A DNA stretch of 48,785 nucleotides from Desulfobacterales bacterium (GTDB lineage Bacteria; Desulfobacterota; Syntrophobacteria; B119-G9): contig JALSTM010000182.1 in NCBI GenBank assembly GCA_026983715.1, positions 1-48,785 on the forward strand, written 5' to 3'. Below the pieces are notes generated by a model. It did no database searches, was not told the origin of the DNA, and was given only the letters and a program-made list of their open reading frames with translations. This document shows, one piece after another, positions 24,382-42,913 of this stretch. A program made the position numbers and the translations under genes. Within the stretch, counting starts at the first letter, position 1; each line of letters starts with the position of its first letter.

Positions 24382-25956
24382 ATGATCACTTTGCTTGATT
24401 ATGGAGCTGGCAATGTCCGAAGCGTTATAAACGCGATTGAGGGCCTTGGAGAAAGGGTTTTGGAGGTAAAGTCGCCCGAAGATATTCTTAGCGCGGAAAA
24501 GCTCGTGTTTCCTGGGGTAGGTAATTTTGGGGAAGTAATGAGAGTACTTAACGAAAGGAATTTTCTGGGCCCTCTCCTGGAATACCTCAATTCAGATCGT
24601 CCATTTCTCGGGATTTGTCTTGGACTCCAGGTACTGTTTGACGGAAGCGAGGAAGCCCCCGATATTAAGGGACTTGGTTTCATAGAAGGTTCCGTTCGTC
24701 GGTTCCGGGTTGATCTTTCTATTCCCCACATCGGCTGGAACGGTTTCAAGCCAAGACAACCTTCTCGCATATTCAAGAATATTAATGGAACCGAAAAGGT
24801 TTACTTTGTTCACTCGTACCATGTCGTTCCCAAGGATCCCTCAGTTGTCCTGACAACCACTGATTACGGTTACGAGTTCGTGAGTGCCATCCAGAAAGGG
24901 AACATAATTGCAACCCAGTTTCACCCGGAAAAAAGCGGTAAAACGGGATTGAGACTCCTGGAAAATTTTCTCAAGGGTGAAACAGAAACCACTTTGCCCC
25001 CAAAATGTCTCGACCACACCAAGCTGGCCAAGAGAATCATCGCATGCCTGGACGTTAGGTCAGATGACGAGGGGAACCTGGTGGTTACAAAGGGTGACCA
25101 GTATGACGTGCGAGAAAAAGGACGGGTCCGAAACCTAGGGAAACCGGTAAGCCTAGCCCAACGTTATTACGAGGAAGGGGCAGATGAGATCACCTTTCTT
25201 AATATCACGGGTTTTAGAGACTTTCCCCTGGAAGACATGCCAATGCTTGAAGTACTTCGCCTGACGTCGGAAAATGTCTTCGTGCCTCTTACCATCGGCG
25301 GTGGAATCAGGAACTATACCGATAGGCACGGACGGTATTATAGTGCTCTTGAAGTTGCCTCGGAATACTTTCGATCAGGTGCGGACAAGATTTCCATCGG
25401 GAGTGATGCCGTTTACATTGTTGAAAATTACTTAAAGACAGGATCGCCATCCGGTAAGAGCGCAATAGAGGAAATTGCAAGGGTTTACGGAAGCCAGGCC
25501 GTAGTTATTTCGATAGATCCGAGACGGATTTATGTGAAAAGCCCTAATGAAGTTCCGTACCAGGTCATTGAAACTTCCATTCCGGGTCCCGAGGGAGAAA
25601 AATTCTGTTGGTATCAATGCACCGTAAAAGGAGGAAGGGAAGGACGGCCCATAGATGCAATAACTCTTGCGCGGGCATGCGAAAAGCTTGGTGCTGGTGA
25701 AATTCTCCTCAACTGCATAGATCGCGATGGTACCAATCTCGGTTTTGATATAGAGTTGATAGATGCTGTTAAAAAGGCTGTCAACATTCCTGTAATCGCT
25801 TCCAGCGGAGCTGGAAAACCCGAACATTTTTTAGAAGTATTTACCAAAACGGACGTCGAATCGGCTCTTGCTGCAGGCATATTTCACAGGAGAGAAGTCC
25901 CTATTAAAGACGTAAAAAAATGCTGCAGAGAGGGCGGAATAGAAGTGAGAGATTAA
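24382..25956 (+). CDS. hisHF: Imidazole glycerol phosphate synthase, HisH-HisF fusion
   Basis: A 524-residue bifunctional enzyme. Residues 1-205 are a class I glutamine amidotransferase: LDYGAGN, the nucleophile C79 in LGICLGLQ, and H181/E183 in QFHPEKSG. Residues about 215-520 are the HisF cyclase barrel with catalytic-type Asps D224 (CLDVRSDD) and D379 (ISIDPRR), GGGI, and IASSGAG. Ammonia from glutamine is channelled to PRFAR to make IGP and AICAR in histidine synthesis. The HisF part has the long insertions of eukaryotic HIS7 (VTKGDQYDVREK, YYSALEVASEYFRSGAD, CWYQCTVKGGR), unlike ordinary bacterial HisF. No other his gene is adjacent. Confidence 0.95.
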   Translation: MITLLDYGAGNVRSVINAIEGLGERVLEVKSPEDILSAEKLVFPGVGNFGEVMRVLNERNFLGPLLEYLNSDRPFLGICLGLQVLFDGSEEAPDIKGLGFIEGSVRRFRVDLSIPHIGWNGFKPRQPSRIFKNINGTEKVYFVHSYHVVPKDPSVVLTTTDYGYEFVSAIQKGNIIATQFHPEKSGKTGLRLLENFLKGETETTLPPKCLDHTKLAKRIIACLDVRSDDEGNLVVTKGDQYDVREKGRVRNLGKPVSLAQRYYEEGADEITFLNITGFRDFPLEDMPMLEVLRLTSENVFVPLTIGGGIRNYTDRHGRYYSALEVASEYFRSGADKISIGSDAVYIVENYLKTGSPSGKSAIEEIARVYGSQAVVISIDPRRIYVKSPNEVPYQVIETSIPGPEGEKFCWYQCTVKGGREGRPIDAITLARACEKLGAGEILLNCIDRDGTNLGFDIELIDAVKKAVNIPVIASSGAGKPEHFLEVFTKTDVESALAAGIFHRREVPIKDVKKCCREGGIEVRD

Positions 25957-28790: not shown

Positions 28791-28841
28791 GCGAGACTGC
28801 CATTAAAACACGCTAAAGTGTTACATGTTCATAAGGAAGTA

Positions 28842-31346
28842 ATGACGAAAATGAACAGGCGTAGCCTTGCCAAATTGTCCAATAGGTTATCTCTTCAGAA
28901 GAAGTTTTTTCTAGCTACAGCCACAATTTTGATGATCTTTACTCTGCTTGTCTCGGTTTTCGTGTACGTGAGTTTAAAGCACTTTTTGCTAGAGTATTCC
29001 TATGAGAAAACTAGACTTTTAATGGCAGAGGCAGAAGCAGCCCGCAAGTATGTTAAGGACATCCTCAGACCCAAGATGTACGCAATTTTACCCAAGGATT
29101 CCTTTGTAGTAGAAGCGATGTCGACGTCCTACGTTACCAGAAAAGTAATGGGAAAAGTTGCCTACATTTCGAAAGACATGATGTACAAGAGAGCAGCAAT
29201 GGACCCTCATAACCCCTCGAACAAGGCCGATGAATTCGAGAGGAAGATGATTCTTGAGTACAATAAGACCCACAGTAGAAGAGAGTGGCAGGGTATAATT
29301 CAGCGTAATGGCCGTAATTGGTTTGTTACAATTGAGCCTATATATACTGAGAAAACATGCCTAAGATGCCACGGATCACCATCAAACGCACCACTGGAAC
29401 TGACCCAACGTTACGGGACATCGTCAGGGTTTCACAGGAAGGAAGGGGAAGTGGCCGGGCTAGATGTTGTGGCCATTCCAGTAGATAATGCCCTGTCCCA
29501 GATTCACAGGGTCGCTTTAGTTATAATTGGCACAGGAATACTGACAGTAATTACACTCTTCGTATTCGTAGGTCTGTTTTTTGAGAAGCTTGTCCATAGG
29601 CCGCTTAAGTCTCTTAATAGCTTCTGTGAAAGCGTCGAAAAGGGCACGTGGAAAACAGATGAACCAATGCGGATGTGCGCGGATGATGAGATTGGTAGGG
29701 TAGCGGTTTCCTTCGAAAGGCTCGTAAGGCATCTACAAGACACTCAGAGAAAGCTCCAGAAATACTCGGAGAATCTGGAGACCCTTGTGGATTTGAGGAC
29801 AAAGGAACTTAACCAGAACAGGAAGTTTCTCGAAACATTAGTGGCCACATCTCCCATCGGTTTTCTCGTCATCAATGGCCAGGGCGAAGTTATTTTCTGG
29901 AATGATGCGGCTCAACAGATAACCGGCATACCTGCCCGCAAAGTTCTCAGACACTACATTGACAACCTTGACTTCCTTCACCCTTTGATCATAGACGTTC
30001 CGAAGAACATAAACAAGACAGAGTCGCATTCGAGCAAGGAATCGACATTTGTGCAGCCCGGGGGATCGACCATTCATCTCCTGGTTAACCAGGCTACCAT
30101 ATCAGGTGAAAACCCCGACGCGTTCATGACAATAATAAACTTTACCGATATATCTGAGATCAAAAGGCTTCACGAAGAACTAGACAGATACGCATCAGAA
30201 CTTGAAATCATAATCGATGAAAAGGTAGCGCTCTTGAGAGAATCCGAGCTTCGATACAGGGAGCTCTTTCAACATGCCAATGATGCTATACTTTTCCTTA
30301 GTGACAGGGATTTCAAAATTATCGACGTGAACCCTCGTTGGCTGAAACTTTCAGGGTACAAAAAGGAGGAGATTATCGGTGAGCCTCTCTACGACTTCCT
30401 TGAAGCCAAAGATAATCAGTGTGCGCTCAAGTGCCTCGAAAGAAGCTACAAAAAACCATGTACCCTAAAACTTAAGTCAAAGAAAAACAATCGCATCTAT
30501 ATTGAGCTGATTTCGAGTAGCTTCGCCATGAATAACAAGAGCTACATTATGAGTATTGTCAGGGACATTACTGCACGTAAACAGTTAGAAGAAGCGATAT
30601 TGCATACCAATATCGAGCTGAAAAAGAGAAATAAGGCGCTCCAGGACATGACCATCAAGCTCTCAAAGGTAGAAGAAAAAACGCGAAGAAAATTTTCTAC
30701 CATCCTTCATGACCAAATCGGACAAGACCTTGCAGCAATAAAAATCAATATTGGAATGCTGAAAAAACAAATGGAAAAAGAGAACATTAAGTTGTTTAAG
30801 GAACTTGCAAGGATGCAGGAGCTTTTGGACAAGGTTATCGCAACCACAAGAGATCTGACCCTGGAAATGTACCCGACAATACTTGATAATCTGGGTTTGG
30901 TGGCGGCATTGAGGTGGTACGCAGACTATTTCTCGGAAAAATTTGCCATGCAAGTGAGCGTACGAGAAAGGGGTACAATCAACAGACTTCCCTTAGATGT
31001 CGAAAACCTGCTTTTCAGGCTGGTCCAAGAAGCTCTAGTTAATTGCGCAAAACACTCCGGAGCCAAGGAAGCTATCCTTTCGGTTTGGGGAACGGACGCG
31101 AAAATTACTATTACAGTGGCTGATGATGGCAAAGGATTTGACCTCAAGAAATTGAACAGTACCTCCCTCCACTCAGGGGTAGGATTACACATAATACGGG
31201 AAAGAATGAACTATCTAGGAGGATCAATTGAAATTCTTAGTAACCCGGGAGCAGGGACAATAGTTATTTTTCAGCTTCCACTCCAGTGCTTAACTGACAA
31301 AAAAGCTGCTTCCGGCATCGATGATCTACCTAACTATTACGGTTAA
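28842..31346 (+). CDS. Sensor histidine kinase with haem-binding DUF3365-like domain (NarX/DesK type)
   Basis: An 834-residue membrane kinase. The ATG at 28842 is preferred; 28818 (GTG) and 28851 are alternatives. TM1 is at about 20-45 and the extracytoplasmic domain at about 45-215 carries CLRCH (173-177), a c-type haem motif within a Tll0287-like/DUF3365 fold. TM2 (about 222-245), HAMP (about 247-300), a coiled coil and two PAS domains (about 330-450 and 465-590) follow. HisKA_3 has the phospho-His H623 in ILHDQIGQDLA, and the ATPase domain has LVQEALVNCAKHSG and DDGKGFD. It should sense redox state or a gas ligand and signal to the NarL-type regulator 51 bases downstream. Confidence 0.93.
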   Translation: MTKMNRRSLAKLSNRLSLQKKFFLATATILMIFTLLVSVFVYVSLKHFLLEYSYEKTRLLMAEAEAARKYVKDILRPKMYAILPKDSFVVEAMSTSYVTRKVMGKVAYISKDMMYKRAAMDPHNPSNKADEFERKMILEYNKTHSRREWQGIIQRNGRNWFVTIEPIYTEKTCLRCHGSPSNAPLELTQRYGTSSGFHRKEGEVAGLDVVAIPVDNALSQIHRVALVIIGTGILTVITLFVFVGLFFEKLVHRPLKSLNSFCESVEKGTWKTDEPMRMCADDEIGRVAVSFERLVRHLQDTQRKLQKYSENLETLVDLRTKELNQNRKFLETLVATSPIGFLVINGQGEVIFWNDAAQQITGIPARKVLRHYIDNLDFLHPLIIDVPKNINKTESHSSKESTFVQPGGSTIHLLVNQATISGENPDAFMTIINFTDISEIKRLHEELDRYASELEIIIDEKVALLRESELRYRELFQHANDAILFLSDRDFKIIDVNPRWLKLSGYKKEEIIGEPLYDFLEAKDNQCALKCLERSYKKPCTLKLKSKKNNRIYIELISSSFAMNNKSYIMSIVRDITARKQLEEAILHTNIELKKRNKALQDMTIKLSKVEEKTRRKFSTILHDQIGQDLAAIKINIGMLKKQMEKENIKLFKELARMQELLDKVIATTRDLTLEMYPTILDNLGLVAALRWYADYFSEKFAMQVSVRERGTINRLPLDVENLLFRLVQEALVNCAKHSGAKEAILSVWGTDAKITITVADDGKGFDLKKLNSTSLHSGVGLHIIRERMNYLGGSIEILSNPGAGTIVIFQLPLQCLTDKKAASGIDDLPNYYG

Positions 31347-31397: not shown

Positions 31398-32045
31398 ATG
31401 AAAGCAAAGATCTTACTCGCAGACGATCATAACCTCGTAAGGGAAGGATTCAAGGCAATAATATCACAGAACAAAGATTATATCATTGTGGGCGAGGCAA
31501 AGGATGGTAAGGAGGCCATTGATAAGTCGATACAGCTCGAACCTGATATCGTTATCATGGACATACTAATGCCTCACATCAACGGAATAGTTGCCACCGA
31601 AGAAATCAAGAAGAATCTCGAAAATACCAATATTATCATACTTTCGATGTATAAGGAAAAACAATACGTGCTAAATGCTTTTATTGCAGGAGCCAAGGGT
31701 TACCTGCTTAAAGATGCAGCAGTTGATGAACTCCTCGAAAGTATAGATAGAGTCTTGCATGGAGAAATTTATATCAGTCCTCCTGTTGCCAAGTACGTAA
31801 TCGAGGATTATTGTAACCTCCTCAATAGAAAAAAAAGCGTAGATCCTTTCAAGAAACTAACATCCAGGGAAAAACAGTTACTCCAGATGATTGCCGAAGG
31901 GAAAAGGACAAAGGAGATAGCTGATATCCTATGTATAAGCCCCAAAACTGTGAAGACCCACAGAAGCGCTCTTATGAAAAAACTCGACTTGCACGACGTA
32001 GCAAGCCTGACCAGGTATGCTCTCCAAAAGGGTCTAGTCACGTAA
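31398..32045 (+). CDS. NarL/LuxR-type response regulator
   Basis: A 215-residue regulator. The receiver (1-125) has ADDH, the phospho-Asp in IVIMDILMP, and the Lys in YLLKDA. The HTH (about 150-210) reads LTSREKQLLQMIAEGK and ISPKTVKTHRSALMKKL. It is the obvious partner of the HisKA_3 kinase just upstream. Its targets are not visible, though the DUF202-receiver gene starts about 200 bases downstream. Confidence 0.95.
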   Translation: MKAKILLADDHNLVREGFKAIISQNKDYIIVGEAKDGKEAIDKSIQLEPDIVIMDILMPHINGIVATEEIKKNLENTNIIILSMYKEKQYVLNAFIAGAKGYLLKDAAVDELLESIDRVLHGEIYISPPVAKYVIEDYCNLLNRKKSVDPFKKLTSREKQLLQMIAEGKRTKEIADILCISPKTVKTHRSALMKKLDLHDVASLTRYALQKGLVT

Positions 32046-32251: not shown

Positions 32252-33349
32252 ATGGATATGCAGCGTAAAACAATAGCTGGGAATAGCAATGATATCGAGA
32301 TTTCCCCACCCAGCGAATACACACCCATTTTAGGCCCCTTAGATGTTTACTTAAAGCATAAGAATCTTGCCGGGCGGAGGAAATCTTACATTGAGGAGCT
32401 TTACCTGTACAGGAAATCTTACATTCGGGAATTGAAGGAAGCCCTGGAAGACGTGCTGACAGAACTTGAAAAGGAAGAGTCACCCTCCCATCTCATGGCA
32501 CTCCTCAACACCAAGTATGCCCTGGAAAGGAATATTCTTGCAGAAGAGCGGAACCTGCTTTCAGAAGAAAGATCGCTTCTTGCAGAAAGGCGCACTTCGG
32601 AAGCTGTCGGAAGAACAGAATTGGCTGAAAACCGAAACGGTCTTGCAAGAATCAGAACACTCTTGTCGAAAAACAGGGGATTTCTGGCAGAAAAAAGGAC
32701 CATTATGGCGCAGCAACGCACCTTTCTGGCCAAGGCTAGAACAGAACTTGCTTTTATCAGGACCGGTGTCGCTTTTATAGCATTAGCCACAGGGCTCATG
32801 CGTTATTTCGGCATGGGCTGGTGGACAATCACCGACGCCATAATCTTTATCTTGGGAATAGCAATGGTTAGCACCGGCATTTATTACTACCTGCCCACTA
32901 GAAGACAGGAAGGCCGACTTATTGACCTGATCAGGCAGAAAGAAGAAGACCTGATGGGCAAAAAACCCAGAATAATGGTGCTCGACGATGATCCAAACGT
33001 GTGCAAGACGCTAAAACTATATCTCAAAAAAGAAGGTTACGAGGTCGAAGCATTCATCGATCCCCTTGCTGCCAAGGAACGGTTAGAAACCACCGAATTC
33101 GATGTCGTTATCACGGACCTCATGATGGAAGGAATGGATGGTTTTGAAGTACTAAAGCTGATAAAAAGACTATCTCCAAACACACAAGTAATTATGATAA
33201 CCTATATAGGAACTTCTCAACACATTCTTAAAGCCATGCGAGAGGATCTGTTCGACTACCTCGTAAAACCGGTCAATATTGAAGAGCTTAAAGACAGCGT
33301 AAAACGGGCTATTGAAAAGAAAAGACAAAAGTTAGAGAGGGCAGCTTAA
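32252..33349 (+). CDS. DUF202 membrane protein with extended heptad coil and C-terminal receiver
   Basis: A 365-residue protein. Residues 1-90 are helical with a near-repeat RKSYIEELYLY / RKSYIREL. Residues 92-175 are twelve consecutive heptads, each with Arg at position 2 and mostly xR(T/N/S)xLAx. The last three or four are the normal DUF202 motif (RTFLAKARTELAFIRTG). Two membrane helices follow at about 175-205 and 208-230. Residues about 245-360 are a receiver: VLDDDP, the Asp in VVITDLMMEGMDG, and the Lys in YLVKPV. AAGGAG lies just before the ATG. It ends one base before the next gene, so the two are translationally coupled. Confidence 0.88.
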   Translation: MDMQRKTIAGNSNDIEISPPSEYTPILGPLDVYLKHKNLAGRRKSYIEELYLYRKSYIRELKEALEDVLTELEKEESPSHLMALLNTKYALERNILAEERNLLSEERSLLAERRTSEAVGRTELAENRNGLARIRTLLSKNRGFLAEKRTIMAQQRTFLAKARTELAFIRTGVAFIALATGLMRYFGMGWWTITDAIIFILGIAMVSTGIYYYLPTRRQEGRLIDLIRQKEEDLMGKKPRIMVLDDDPNVCKTLKLYLKKEGYEVEAFIDPLAAKERLETTEFDVVITDLMMEGMDGFEVLKLIKRLSPNTQVIMITYIGTSQHILKAMREDLFDYLVKPVNIEELKDSVKRAIEKKRQKLERAA

Positions 33350-33350
33350 G

Positions 33351-35945
33351 ATGCTAAAGTTCTTAAAAATGTTAAAAAAAGAAAGGCGGAAAGGCTCTGA
33401 TGAAGAGGAGCATTTTCGAGAAAAATACGAAGCCTTTATGACAATTCTTGCAGAAAATGAACATGCGCTGGAATTGATGACAGAATTAGAAAAAAAATAT
33501 TACAGCAGCGAACTAACCAGTATCCCATATTTGAAAAACGTTATAAAGAACCTGTCCAAGAGTATTAGGTATGTTGTGGACAGCCTGGTTCAGCTATCAG
33601 GAGGAAAGTACAAAGAAGTTGTCGATGTATTCGAAGAAATAGAAGATGAGATTCGTGAGATAATTACTGGAAAAAAAGAGCCTTTATATACTCCCGTCAT
33701 CATTCCCATGGACCAGCTCACAAAAGAATTCATTGACAAAGCAGGTACCAAGATGGCTAACCTTGGAGAACTTCGCAATAAGGTAGGGCTGCGAGTTCCG
33801 GATGGTTTTGCCGTAACAGCCTGTGCGTATCAACAATTCATCGACTACAATTCGATAATCCCGAAGGCCGCAAAGATTCTTGAGAAACTCAACATAGACG
33901 ACAACCAGGAACTCATCAAGGCTGAAAAAGAATTAAAGAAGCTCGTCCTGGAGGCAGAAGTCCCACCCGAAATTTATTATCTTATAGAAAAACACTCAAA
34001 AGAATTGGAAAAACGTGCAGGTAAGCAGCTTTTCTGGGCAGTTAGGAGCAGTGCCCTTGGTGAAGATTTAGAAAATTCCTTTGCAGGCCAGTTCTCCACC
34101 GTTTTAAACGTACCCACTGACGAACTTGCTACCAAATACAAAGAAGTGATCTCAAGCAAATACAATGCTCGAGCAATCGTGTACAGGAAAATTAAGAATA
34201 TCAGGGATGATGATATAAGTATGAGCGTGGGAATAGTAGAAATGATCCACCCACTTTGTTCAGGGGTTTTATATACCACTGATCCGGTGAAACCCGAAAA
34301 ACAAGAGATTATTATCAATGCCGTATGGGGGTTGGGACAGCTACTTGTAGAAGGAGTGGTTTCGGCAGACATTTTCGTAATTGATCGATCTAATGGCTTT
34401 TCCATCAGGAAAGAAGAAATAGCGGAAAAACAGGTTTGCCTGGTGGAATGTAGAAGTGGGGGAACAGATTATGAAGTGGTTCCAGATGACAGATGCTCGA
34501 AACCTTGCCTTGATGAACGACAACTAGAAGAGCTTGCAGAAGTCGCCGTAAAGGTTGAAAAACACTTTTCGTGCCCCCAAGATATTGAATGGGTCTACGA
34601 CAAGAATGGCGAACTCTACCTTTTGCAGGCCAGGCCGCTACACGTAATTAAGGCTAGTTCAGAAGAAGAAGCAACGCACGTTTTGGACGCTCCCATAATA
34701 TCGAAAAAGGGTGAGCCCGTCAGCGCTGGAGTCGCAGTCGGTAAGGTTTTTAAGCTAGATGACATCCATGATCTCATTAATCTACCTCGGGGTGCAGTAC
34801 TCGTTACTCGCAGTTCTACCCCCAGGCTTGTAAAAGCTGTTGGAAAAGCTTCCGCAATACTGGCAGAGAGAGGTAATACGACGGATCATATGGCATCTGT
34901 CGTTAGAGAATTCAAAATTCCGTGCATGGTAAAAGTTCCCGAAATTTTTTCCAAGCTTCAAAATGGACAGGAGATAACAGTCGACGCTACGCTAGGTATT
35001 ATTTACGAAGGATGTTTTCCTGAATTGATTAAAGAAGAAACGGAACTCAAGGAAACCTGGATCGACGTAAAAAATACCGAGTCCTACCAGGTGCTTCAAA
35101 GGCTTTCAAAATTAATAATACCCCTTCATCTCACAGATCCTAGGGACCATAATTTCAGGCCTGAATGCTGCAAAACCTGGCACGACATTCTCAGATTTTG
35201 CCATGAAACTGCATTGAATGAAATGTTTTCGCTTACAGAGAAAGAAGAGATCAAGAAGATTAAGCAGGTATACAAGATAAAAACTAAGCTGCCCTTCCAA
35301 CTTTACGTACTGGATCTCTATGGTAATACCGTGCAAGTAAAAGAGCAAAAGACAATCGACCCGGAAACCGTCAATTCCCTCCCCTTTCAAGCCCTATGGA
35401 AAGGGATGTCTGCACCTTATGTCCCGTGGTCGGGTCCCCCGGTGGCGATGAGCATGAAAGATCTGCTTGGGGCAATGTCGCGAACGACATCTCTGGAAAG
35501 TGCACCAAAAGATACGAGGAGTCTGGCAGTAGTTACTAAGGACTACCTCAACCTGAGCTTGAGTATGGGATTTCATTACGTTATACTTGATGCCTATCTT
35601 TCAAGTCACCCGTTTAACAATTATATCTCTTTCTCCTTCAAAGGGGGAGCTGCAGAACTACGAAAGCGAGAACTGAGAGTAACACTTGTTGGAAGGATTC
35701 TCCAGCGCCTGGGGTTTGAAGTAAAGAAAACAAGAGACTTCCTAAAAGCAAGAATAAAGGCTGACACAGCAGAAACTCTGGCAAAAAAACTAAACACCAT
35801 CGGCAGAATGCTGGGGGTAACACGGCTCTTAGACATTGCCATGTCTTCGGAAGAAACTGTTGAACAGTACCTGGAACGTTTCTTTAACCAGGATTACTCA
35901 TTAGAAGCTGGAAACGATAAGACTGTCTCCCAGTCAAGCGGCTAA
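33351..35945 (+). CDS. PEP-synthase-like protein with unknown C-terminal domain (plus-strand copy)
   Basis: An 864-residue cytosolic protein. Residues 1-105 form a helical N-domain. Residues about 120-445 are the ATP-grasp PEP/pyruvate-kinase N-domain: MANLGEL, WAVRSSALGEDLENSFAGQ, SGVLYTTDP, QDIEWVYDKNGELYLLQARP. Residues about 465-560 are the swivelling His domain with catalytic His H513 in TTDHMASVVRE. The C-terminal PEP barrel of PpsA is not recognisable. Instead residues 590-855 form a domain shared with the 40343-42913 protein (RPECCKTWHDILRFCHETA). It can probably form phospho-His from ATP but cannot be a normal PEP synthase. Partner: the adjacent receiver. Confidence 0.88.
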   Translation: MLKFLKMLKKERRKGSDEEEHFREKYEAFMTILAENEHALELMTELEKKYYSSELTSIPYLKNVIKNLSKSIRYVVDSLVQLSGGKYKEVVDVFEEIEDEIREIITGKKEPLYTPVIIPMDQLTKEFIDKAGTKMANLGELRNKVGLRVPDGFAVTACAYQQFIDYNSIIPKAAKILEKLNIDDNQELIKAEKELKKLVLEAEVPPEIYYLIEKHSKELEKRAGKQLFWAVRSSALGEDLENSFAGQFSTVLNVPTDELATKYKEVISSKYNARAIVYRKIKNIRDDDISMSVGIVEMIHPLCSGVLYTTDPVKPEKQEIIINAVWGLGQLLVEGVVSADIFVIDRSNGFSIRKEEIAEKQVCLVECRSGGTDYEVVPDDRCSKPCLDERQLEELAEVAVKVEKHFSCPQDIEWVYDKNGELYLLQARPLHVIKASSEEEATHVLDAPIISKKGEPVSAGVAVGKVFKLDDIHDLINLPRGAVLVTRSSTPRLVKAVGKASAILAERGNTTDHMASVVREFKIPCMVKVPEIFSKLQNGQEITVDATLGIIYEGCFPELIKEETELKETWIDVKNTESYQVLQRLSKLIIPLHLTDPRDHNFRPECCKTWHDILRFCHETALNEMFSLTEKEEIKKIKQVYKIKTKLPFQLYVLDLYGNTVQVKEQKTIDPETVNSLPFQALWKGMSAPYVPWSGPPVAMSMKDLLGAMSRTTSLESAPKDTRSLAVVTKDYLNLSLSMGFHYVILDAYLSSHPFNNYISFSFKGGAAELRKRELRVTLVGRILQRLGFEVKKTRDFLKARIKADTAETLAKKLNTIGRMLGVTRLLDIAMSSEETVEQYLERFFNQDYSLEAGNDKTVSQSSG

Positions 35946-39907: not shown

Positions 39908-40318
39908 CTACCCTTTACCTTTCCCTGAAGCCTCACCGGCTTTTTTCTTCCTTTCCGCTTTTTTCACTACTTCTCGAATTTCGCTTATTTTAAAAGGTTT
40001 CGCCACGAAATCAAAAACGCCTTTCTGGAAAGATTCCTTGGCAGTTTCCATGGTTGCAAATCCTGTAATTACAATTACTTCAGTCTCAGGAGACCTTTCC
40101 TTCACAGCCGTAAGAAACTGCATTCCATCTACGCCCTCCATTTTGAGGTCGGTAATGACGATATCAAAATCTTGTTCCTGAACTCTTTCCATGGCCTCGG
40201 AACTGTTAGTGAAGGCTTCCACCTCGTATCCAAGCTTCTCAAATGCGGGTTTTAGCCTTTTACAGACGATAGGTTCATCGTCCAGAATTAAAATACGAGT
40301 CTTGCTCTCTTCACTCAT
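39908..40318 (-). CDS. Single-domain response regulator (receiver)
   Basis: A 136-residue receiver followed by a Lys-rich tail (KKAERKKKAGEASGKGKG), without output domain. ILDDE, the phospho-Asp in IVITDLKMEGVDG, and FVAKPF are intact. ATG 40318 is chosen because AGGAGG lies just upstream. It closely resembles the receiver of the DUF202 protein (VEAF..., VITDLxMEGxDG) and, like it, is next to a PEP-synthase-like gene, 24 bases downstream of it. Confidence 0.93.
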   Translation of the reverse strand: MSEESKTRILILDDEPIVCKRLKPAFEKLGYEVEAFTNSSEAMERVQEQDFDIVITDLKMEGVDGMQFLTAVKERSPETEVIVITGFATMETAKESFQKGVFDFVAKPFKISEIREVVKKAERKKKAGEASGKGKG

Positions 40319-40342
40319 AAAATTTCCTCCTTGATAAAGCAC

Positions 40343-42913
40343 CTATCTCAAAAGTCCGCCAATACGTTGTTTGAATTCTTCCTCGAAATGATTCACGTGA
40401 TCATCATGTTTCATGAGCACGTCAAGCTGGCGGGTATATGCTACAAGGCCTCCCAGTAAAACGACCCTTCTTTCCATTTCATCCCTTGGCAATTTCTTTA
40501 TCCGCCCAATGACCAGGTCACCCTTGATCTCGACCCTGAAATCATACTGTTCCAGGATGTTCGCTATAAACCTAGCCCTTCGGGATCTTCTGGTAATCTC
40601 TGTCACCCCTCCAAGGAAGCGGAAATACGCGTAGTTATCGTTTACGCTATCACTTATATAAACGTCGATTATGTTAAAATGATAGCCCAACCTAAGGCTC
40701 ATGTTCATGTATTCCTTGCTCAGCACCACGAGATTTTTCCCGACCTGTTCCGGGCTAGCCATGGAAGACGAAAACGTTCTTGTAAGACTAGACATAAAAC
40801 TTCCGAGATCAACCGAGACAGGCTCATTAGCCCACAACCCTGCATGGCAAAGACCTTTTACGAAGGCTATCATTGGTATGGAAGTAATCATGTCCATGGT
40901 AACGACGTTTTTATTTTCAAGTTCTTTTATTCCTCCCCCAATGTCAAGCACCGAAACACCAAGAGGTATATCAAGTTCAAGACGCTTAAGCCCTGATCTG
41001 AGCCACTTACTGGATCTTTCGCCGATTTGAATGAGCTCATCCACGGCCTTTTCATGTACGAAGCGAACAATATCGTGGTACGTCTGGCAGCCATCTGGCC
41101 TGAATCTTTCATCATGAGGATCAACTATGTTCAACGGAACCACCTTTCTCAATATCCTTCTCAAGAGGCGGTACTCGTATGATTCCTCAAAAACATCTTC
41201 TTGAATCAATTCGTAGAGGCACAACTCCTTGAATTTCCCCGCATATACGACATTTTGAGTTGCGTCAACCGTGATTTCATCGCCAGTCTTTAACATCTGG
41301 GTGGCAACACCGGTGTTAACTATGGTAGGAACCCTGAATTCCCTGGCAACCGTTGCCATGTGCCCGGTGGGAGATCCTATGTCGGTTAAAATAGCAAGTG
41401 CTTGCTTTATCGCCTTGGTCAATCTCGGAGAAGTGTGCCTAGCAACAACGATAGAACCAATAGGGACTTTGCCCACGTCATCGTCAGTCTCTATCACGAA
41501 TACCGTTCCGCATGCCACGCCTCTTTGAACAACGTCTCCCTTCCCTTCGAAAAGTACCTTCTGACCCTGGGTAATGTCGGGAAGCAGACAGAATTCTCCC
41601 ATGTATGGTAACTGGACTTTCAGGGGCCTAGTTTGAAGGATTATCAATTCATGGTTTTCGCCTATTGCCCACTCGATGTCCTGGGGCCTTTTATAATAAC
41701 GTTCAAGAACCATTGCCACGTGAGCCAGACGTTCAATATCTTCTGACGTCAGACAGGGTTTATGCTGGCGGTCTTCCGGGACATCCACTTCTCGTGTTCC
41801 GCCACCTTCTTCCGCCACAAGCATTTTCGCTTTGTGTACAATATTTAAGTGCTTTACCGTGTAGGGAGCATCCCTGCTTACGTGATACCTGTCCGCAGAA
41901 GCCTCACCGGAAACCACCGGAGCCCCTAGACCCCACGTAGCTGATATCACCATCAAATCTTTTTCTGGTGAAATAGGATCCATCGTGTAAAGGACACCAC
42001 TTGAGCGAGGATTCACCATAAGCTGGCACCCTACGGCCATGGAAATCTCGTGCTCAAGGAATCCCTTTTGCTGGCGGTACTCCCAGGCTGTGGGAGAGTA
42101 AGTACTGGCTATTACTTTCTTGTAATAATCCAACACCTCTTCATCCGGAACATTCAAAAAACTTTCATACTGGCCCGCAAAACTGTGTTCCGTATCTTCC
42201 TCTATGGCACTGCTTCTAACCGCAAAATAGATCCTTTCCTCACCGAGCTTGGACTTTAACTTTGTTACAGCACGTCTTATTTCCTTTGCCACACCGGTGG
42301 GAACCTCACTTTGGAGTATCTTGTCAGTAACCTCCTTAGAAATAGTTTCCAAGGAAGTGGCGCCGTGCCTGATATCGTTCTCAATATCTTTCAGGATCTT
42401 ATCAATCCCGCTTTCACCTAAGAACTCGTGGAAAGCCCTGGTGGTTATTACAAACCCATCAGGAGTAAGAAGTTCAAGCACGCTATTAATCTCACCAAGA
42501 TTGGCGTTTTTATTGCCCACGGATTCGATATCATCCATGGTAACTTCCTCGTAGAAAACAACCAGACGTTCATCTCCGTAGGCAGGTCTTCCTTCCAGTT
42601 CTGCCTGGATCTGCGACTGGATGCGCTCGTATGCATGGTAGAGGTCAACATATTTCTGAGATGTGAGCATGTTAAGGTCATAGATTATCTTATAGACCAG
42701 GTCGTTGAGCCTGTTACTTACATCAATTATGTACTGGCGATCAAATACGTAATCACCTCCGAGCTTGTCCCCCATGTCTGCCATGATCTCAAGTATTTCG
42801 TTGTTTCTTTTTAGTATGCTTTGAAACCTGGCAAACAGGACCGCAAAAGAAGTTGGATCCGTCCTGGTCCGCCAAAAGGCAAGCTTATGTTTTATGCGCT
42901 CAAAACTTCCCAT
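40343..42913 (-). CDS. PEP-synthase-like protein with unknown C-terminal domain (minus-strand copy)
   Basis: An 856-residue protein with the same plan as 33351-35945. A helical N-domain (1-110) precedes the ATP-grasp domain: NKNANLGEIN, FAVRSSAIEEDTEHSFAGQ, SSGVLYTMDP, QDIEWAIGENHELIILQTRP. The swivelling domain has H518 in SPTGHMATVAREF. The C-terminus (about 590-850) shares RPDGCQTYHDIVRFVHEKA with the other copy. No PEP-barrel motifs are seen. AAGGGG precedes the ATG. It is 15 bases from the TIGR02186 gene and 24 bases before the receiver. Confidence 0.88.
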   Translation of the reverse strand: MGSFERIKHKLAFWRTRTDPTSFAVLFARFQSILKRNNEILEIMADMGDKLGGDYVFDRQYIIDVSNRLNDLVYKIIYDLNMLTSQKYVDLYHAYERIQSQIQAELEGRPAYGDERLVVFYEEVTMDDIESVGNKNANLGEINSVLELLTPDGFVITTRAFHEFLGESGIDKILKDIENDIRHGATSLETISKEVTDKILQSEVPTGVAKEIRRAVTKLKSKLGEERIYFAVRSSAIEEDTEHSFAGQYESFLNVPDEEVLDYYKKVIASTYSPTAWEYRQQKGFLEHEISMAVGCQLMVNPRSSGVLYTMDPISPEKDLMVISATWGLGAPVVSGEASADRYHVSRDAPYTVKHLNIVHKAKMLVAEEGGGTREVDVPEDRQHKPCLTSEDIERLAHVAMVLERYYKRPQDIEWAIGENHELIILQTRPLKVQLPYMGEFCLLPDITQGQKVLFEGKGDVVQRGVACGTVFVIETDDDVGKVPIGSIVVARHTSPRLTKAIKQALAILTDIGSPTGHMATVAREFRVPTIVNTGVATQMLKTGDEITVDATQNVVYAGKFKELCLYELIQEDVFEESYEYRLLRRILRKVVPLNIVDPHDERFRPDGCQTYHDIVRFVHEKAVDELIQIGERSSKWLRSGLKRLELDIPLGVSVLDIGGGIKELENKNVVTMDMITSIPMIAFVKGLCHAGLWANEPVSVDLGSFMSSLTRTFSSSMASPEQVGKNLVVLSKEYMNMSLRLGYHFNIIDVYISDSVNDNYAYFRFLGGVTEITRRSRRARFIANILEQYDFRVEIKGDLVIGRIKKLPRDEMERRVVLLGGLVAYTRQLDVLMKHDDHVNHFEEEFKQRIGGLLR

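Follow-up and report, generated by a model that had tools for sequence, protein, structure and literature searches.

Introduction

DUF202 domains are widespread in bacteria, and among the publications mentioning DUF202 that our literature search returned, judged mostly by title and abstract, none concerns its bacterial function. The stretch of DNA analyzed here (the window, 48,785 nucleotides of a Desulfobacterales contig) encodes a DUF202 protein in which an arginine-bearing heptad is repeated twelve times before the chain enters the membrane, and which ends in a receiver domain. What might an arginine-striped stalk of this length do, and to what does the receiver connect it?

Results

Twelve arginine heptads lead into a predicted membrane hairpin

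The stalk gene and its surroundings comprise the following features, with the basis of each assignment in parentheses.

28818 to 31346, + strand: Tll0287-PAS-PAS-HisKA_3 histidine kinase, upstream of the stalk gene (Pfam)
31398 to 32045, + strand: NarL/LuxR-type response regulator, upstream of the stalk gene (Pfam)
32252 to 33349, + strand: DUF202-receiver protein, 365 aa with the stop included (open reading frame listing; Pfam DUF202 and Response_reg above cut-off; six other full-length orthologs)
32363 to 32524, + strand: helical N-terminal region preceding the heptads, residues ~38 to 91, with a helix at 43 to 74 and then the start of helix 78 to 186 (AlphaFold)
32525 to 32776, + strand: twelve exact heptads of the pattern xR(T/N/S)xLAx, residues 92 to 175 (direct counts; gap-free in seven orthologs)
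32759 to 32809, + strand: first transmembrane helix (TM1), residues ~170 to 186, continuous with the stalk helix and carrying the in-phase residues R170, A177, and R184 (AlphaFold helix 78 to 186; alignment of stalk proteins)
32825 to 32953, + strand: second transmembrane helix (TM2) and following linker helix, residues 192 to 234 (AlphaFold; Pfam DUF202 at 155 to 217 of the 364-aa query)
32972 to 33301, + strand: receiver domain, residues ~241 to 350 (Pfam Response_reg, E 1.2e-27; Foldseek receiver matches)
33351 to 35945, + strand: dikinase-like protein of 864 aa with PPDK_N and PEP-utilizers (swivelling His) domains and its own conserved C-terminal region (Pfam)
39911 to 42913, - strand: second copy of the module, lacking the stalk, with a stand-alone receiver (39914 to 40342) and a paralogous PPDK-like gene (40349 to 42913) (Pfam)

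The stalk gene starts at the ATG at 32252, with a second ATG at 32258 as an alternative and AAGGAG close upstream. Elsewhere in the window, a 524-aa open reading frame (24382 to 25953, + strand) matches HisH over residues 2 to 198 and HisF over 215 to 523, as a fused imidazole glycerol phosphate synthase.

The heptads read, in order, ERNILAE, ERNLLSE, ERSLLAE, RRTSEAV, GRTELAE, NRNGLAR, IRTLLSK, NRGFLAE, KRTIMAQ, QRTFLAK, ARTELAF, and IRTGVAF. Position 2 is arginine and position 6 alanine or serine in all twelve, position 3 is T, N, or S in eleven (glycine in the remaining one), and position 5 is leucine in nine; E, N, and K are frequent at positions 4, 7, and 1. In 20,000 shuffles, whether the whole protein or helix 78 to 186 alone was shuffled, the longest chain of arginines spaced by seven reached 6, versus 12 in the real protein. 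These counts substantiate the sequence-only reading, which had described twelve uninterrupted heptads with arginine at the second position throughout. That reading had also derived the array from the DUF202 motif in a protein linking DUF202 to a receiver, and Pfam agreed, with DUF202 (PF02656) passing its gathering score at 26.6 versus 23.4 bits.

Structure prediction with AlphaFold, from the alignment of seven orthologs, gave a helix spanning residues 78 to 186, a second helix from 192 to 234, and the receiver, at moderate confidence (mean pLDDT, 69.5; pTM, 0.33). Because a single helix is predicted from 78 to 186, the stalk and TM1 are taken to be continuous, in agreement with the long helix from cytosol into membrane proposed from the letters; the proposed length of roughly 12 nm likewise corresponds to 84 residues, each adding 0.15 nm. 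The RT motif is followed by two apolar helices, one ending at 186 and the other at 192 to 234, which form a predicted membrane hairpin; both ends of the hairpin presumably lie on the cytosolic side. The phase of the array is carried into TM1 in 13/13 aligned stalk proteins, with alanine or serine in the A177 column one heptad on and an invariant arginine at R184 two heptads on.

On an alpha helix, xRTxLAx places the arginine between leucine (i+3) and alanine (i+4), that is, on a packing face. By arithmetic, a stripe with exact seven-residue spacing turns by 20 degrees with each heptad if the helix is straight, and 12 to 38 units, the range discussed below, would wind 240 to 760 degrees unless the helices supercoil, which favors a left-handed coiled coil; coiled coils accommodate exact seven-residue spacing, whereas flat surface helices do not. 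Searched by sequence against solved structures, the stalk region of the window protein gave no meaningful match. Receiver folds were among the Foldseek matches listed for its model. A role in anti-phage defense was considered and set aside, the matches being to generic receivers and coiled coils only.

Extended stalks form a class found in two phyla

We compared the window protein with its six other orthologs, which are 49 to 85% identical to it. In the alignment of the seven, which is gap-free across the array, 11 of the 12 heptad arginines are invariant, and the arginine column is the most conserved of the heptad (mean identity, 98.8%, versus 73 to 88% at the other positions). Exactly twelve contiguous units occur in 6/7; in the L006 ortholog the displacement of one arginine by one residue leaves 9. 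Of 30 DUF202 loci drawn from 148 genomes of the phylum, 4 were extended or multi-module, 1 was without a readable motif, and the remaining 25 were ordinary. The 25 ordinary proteins have 2 to 4 contiguous units, as expected from the earlier estimate of about three. The run thus exceeds the usual length for the family, although run length is a habit of DUF202 and not part of its Pfam definition.

A single search of 395 genomes of the home phylum, followed by sorting by reading the proteins, yielded extended or multi-module DUF202 in 21. The number of contiguous units up to TM1 is 38 in G322, 30 in G360, 29 in G158, 22 in G126, 17 in G169, and 11 to 15 in others. Nine strong cases with 15 to 20 units were found among 396 genomes of the phylum to which the Acidobacteria metagenome-assembled genome (MAG) of L020 belongs; the distribution given here covers the home phylum and this Acidobacteria sample. 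The comparison of repeat number among relatives that the sequence-only reading had called for therefore gave twelve in six of the seven orthologs and 11 to 38 across the class, and the idea that the array is unique to the window genome is ruled out by extended stalks in two sampled phyla. The window protein is the receiver-fused branch of a broader extended-stalk DUF202 class. The long-stalk proteins (those of G322, G360, G158, G126, G169, and the nine genomes of the Acidobacteria sample) have in common with it the heptad, the transmembrane domain, and the in-phase arginine at the end of TM1, but their chains lack a receiver.

In G322, G360, and G126 the gene next to the stalk gene encodes a HisKA kinase, followed in G322 and G126 by a separate receiver gene; in G158 the stalk gene is followed by open reading frames of corresponding size. 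Other receiver-less stalk genes sit after a Cytidylate_kin2-BON gene, which lies directly upstream at L106:4398-5201, L097:9268-10092, and L154:5624-6454 (home phylum and an Aminicenantes MAG). A genome of the same genus (G001) holds a partial copy near a contig end (L116:7611-8177) that contains one stop and continues into a fragment of PPDK-like sequence; either the gene is broken or the contig is chimeric.

In seven genomes (G029, G300, G339, G153, G370, G306, and G105) a gene with three DUF202 copies adjoins one with two. These pairs, at L097, L098, L099, L100, L101, L102, and L103, have five DUF202 modules in total; in G055 one three-copy and one two-copy gene each lie close to a contig end. 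On the evidence of gene content, the 3 + 2 arrangement hints at pentamers. The modules of these MshEN-DUF202x3 and MshEN-DUF202x2 proteins are related to that of the window protein, with ~5 to 8 heptads each, and the genes have kinase and receiver genes nearby, joined in some genomes by PPDK-like ones, as at the window gene. Unlike the window protein, they have several modules in each chain, together with an N-domain resembling the c-di-GMP-binding domains of MshE and PilF. Foldseek with a model of the three-module protein returned c-di-GMP-type N-domains and weak helical matches, from which Vtc1 was absent, an absence that carries no information; ExbB pentamers and designed toroids were also matched, at Z scores of ~7 to 10, too low to be of use for helical bundles.

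The array is maintained at the protein level

The sequence-only reading had also seen the repeat in the DNA, as 21-base units. Tandem Repeats Finder (TRF) reported just 2.5 copies of a 21-base unit (32535 to 32587; 72% matches), and the twelve 21-base units have a mean identity of 0.460, no higher than that obtained by shuffling synonymous codons (0.463 +- 0.006; 617 of 1,000 shuffles at or above the real value). The long-stalk relatives gave a picture much like that of the window protein, the biggest excess being that of G169 (0.617 versus 0.602). Similarity between the units is therefore only what the amino acids impose, a DNA-level tandem repeat is ruled out, and we conclude that the array is kept by selection on the protein.

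Arrays of short units can expand through slippage, and the 2.5 copies found by TRF would fit such a history; neutral expansion or an assembly artefact is nevertheless refuted, and in our judgment has next to no chance of being correct, by units whose DNA has diverged as far as synonymous shuffling permits, by the array running without gaps through seven orthologs, and by similar arrays in two phyla. In particular, an assembly error, which had been named as a way in which the reading could fail, is excluded because the orthologs align across the array gap-free and with 11 of the 12 arginines kept.

The heptad arginine aligns with the pore register of Vtc1

We compared a profile of the DUF202 core with the PDB. 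The four best matches were all Vtc1 chains, with E values of 0.5 to 0.8 that are weak alone; the Vtc1 segment itself matches the DUF202 model with an E value of 1.2e-16. In the profile alignment (a weak match; E, 0.5), the RT of the heptad aligns with the ERT of Vtc1. Cryo-electron microscopy of the yeast VTC complex has shown a pentamer of three Vtc1, one Vtc3, and one Vtc4, in which K24 and R31 of Vtc1 and K622 and R629 of Vtc4, each pair seven residues apart, line the channel wall together with K694, K698, R705, and R709 of Vtc3 (PMC9911596). By this alignment the heptad arginine is in register with the basic residues lining the VTC pore, a profile match that would be weak without the Pfam link. 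If the stalk protein assembles as VTC does, its arginine stripe would therefore be an outward continuation of the pore-lining stripe.

The window protein has in common with DUF202 proteins at large (PF02656), Vtc1 and ordinary bacterial members included, RT heptads that run into TM1 and a TM2 that follows; it differs in its twelve contiguous heptads in place of 2 to 4 and in the C-terminal receiver. With yeast VTC (Vtc1, Vtc3, and Vtc4) it shares a homologous membrane domain and basic TM1 residues spaced by seven in the same register. The window system differs from VTC in its long arginine stalk, its receiver, and its PPDK-like partner, and its genome has no VTC polymerase domain; most stalk genomes, moreover, lack polyphosphate kinase.

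We also surveyed polyphosphate enzymes in 20 genomes carrying extended or multi-module DUF202. PPK1 was found in 1/20, PPK2 in 1/20, and the VTC polymerase (PF09359) in 0/20; both positives are the same genome, G105, and all three families are missing from 19/20. Each polyphosphate kinase occurs in 11/148 genomes of the phylum, so that their absence is usual there and no specific loss in the stalk genomes. A channel for polyphosphate fed by the known kinases is thus not supported, and these gene contents do not support polyphosphate as the cargo; another anion or polyanion, or none, is possible.

The receiver is associated by gene context with a PPDK-like enzyme

The receiver of the window protein has the motifs DDD, ITD, and KP, which supply the acidic pocket, phospho-Asp, Thr/Ser, and Lys of PF00072. 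In the L113 ortholog an Asn is aligned at the phospho-Asp, and phosphorylation may thus not matter everywhere. A PPDK-like gene (~855 aa) lies directly downstream in the operon in every ortholog that could be read at this point; in L003 the contig end cuts the copy. The enzyme shares PPDK_N, an ATP domain of phosphate-transfer enzymes, and the swivelling His domain with the PEP synthase/PPDK family, and 10/10 of the aligned members keep the catalytic His of the swivel; it differs from that family in having its own C-terminal region and in falling below the PEP synthase equivalog cut-offs (368 versus 598 and 352.5 versus 739.75 bits). Our literature search found nothing direct on this enzyme.

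Among the nearest non-orthologous receivers fetched, 16/17 adjoin a PPDK-like gene, and the 17th (L059) lies in the DUF202 cluster of G029. The receiver of the window protein therefore looks like a dikinase-partner receiver that, to judge from these relatives, became fused to a membrane stalk. The C-terminal region of the enzyme occurs in 146/395 genomes; it accompanies extended or multi-module DUF202 in 21/21 and is found in 125/374 of the remaining genomes (Fisher p, 3e-10, with the relatedness of genomes ignored). Within the window, the stand-alone receiver of the second module copy is closely related to the receiver of the stalk protein, and its PPDK-like partner is 33% identical to the first enzyme (tblastn). 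Genes in the neighborhood of this second pair encode three Usp-domain proteins, a TauE-type protein, a Kup-type K+ transporter, and a HisKA/sigma-54 two-component pair.

Discussion

We tentatively favor a model, which we regard as plausible while stopping somewhat short of calling it probable, in which an oligomeric, probably pentameric, coiled-coil stalk extends the arginine-lined DUF202 pore helix by ~12 nm into the cytosol and recruits the PPDK-like enzyme through the receiver, with the histidine kinase as the switch. The two transmembrane helices of each chain would form the Vtc1-type membrane domain of DUF202, and TM1 would be prolonged by twelve heptads, forming a left-handed coiled coil that reaches ~12.6 nm into the cytosol. 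One core position in each layer would hold an arginine, continuing the Arg/Lys stripe of the VTC pentamer pore. Five chains may assemble into a cytosolic tube or bundle with ~60 inward arginines above the membrane pore, suited to hold or conduct an anion or polyanion as its ligand. On the cytosolic side, the C-terminal receiver would dock the neighboring enzyme at the stalk, under the control of the histidine kinase. A point against this model is that a bare arginine in every core layer would be unstable without counter-ions.

Its main rivals are a plain spacer and an outward-facing, polyanion-binding rod. As a rigid spacer or scaffold, an ordinary coiled coil would set the distance and stoichiometry of the receiver and enzyme from the membrane, no anion would pass, and the arginines would serve salt bridges between helices with the E, K, and N positions. 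Such an arrangement would explain why the number of units is fixed within orthologs and varies between subfamilies, as in molecular rulers, and E, N, and K are indeed common at the appropriate heptad positions; the arginine stripe, however, is much more constant than a scaffold requires, shares its phase with the pore residues of Vtc1, and reaches the invariant arginine inside TM1, and we consider this explanation rather unlikely, though it deserves serious attention. Were the stripe to lie on the outer face, the rod could bind nucleic acid, anionic lipid headgroups, or another polyanion, a role for which 12 to 38 arginines in register and a membrane anchor placing the rod close to the inner leaflet would be fitting. 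Given the 20-degree drift of each strict heptad along a straight helix, a flat surface would meet the arginines along part of the rod only, and the flanking leucine and alanine indicate that their face is used for packing and is not free. We therefore hold this reading to be unlikely.

Two further proposals take the likeness to VTC literally. A bacterial polyphosphate channel would be in keeping with a membrane domain and a basic-residue register like those of Vtc1; the stalk genomes nevertheless have no known source of polyphosphate, given the counts of PPK1, PPK2, and VTC polymerase above, and such a channel seems improbable to us. Equally far from what we expect is a bacterial VTC counterpart in which the dikinase-like enzyme would make or handle a phosphate-rich polyanion through its phospho-His swivel, a novel route in place of PPK or VTC, the pentameric arginine tube would take it up and conduct it through the membrane, and the receiver would replace the SPX switch.

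The extended-stalk class is widespread and little known, and both the Vtc1 pore register and the PPDK-partner family of the receiver had escaped the sequence-only reading. The class bears on whether the channel architecture of VTC has a bacterial parallel, and a pore-lining heptad that is repeated up to 38 times and tied to a dikinase-like enzyme offers a testable handle on the role of DUF202 in bacteria.
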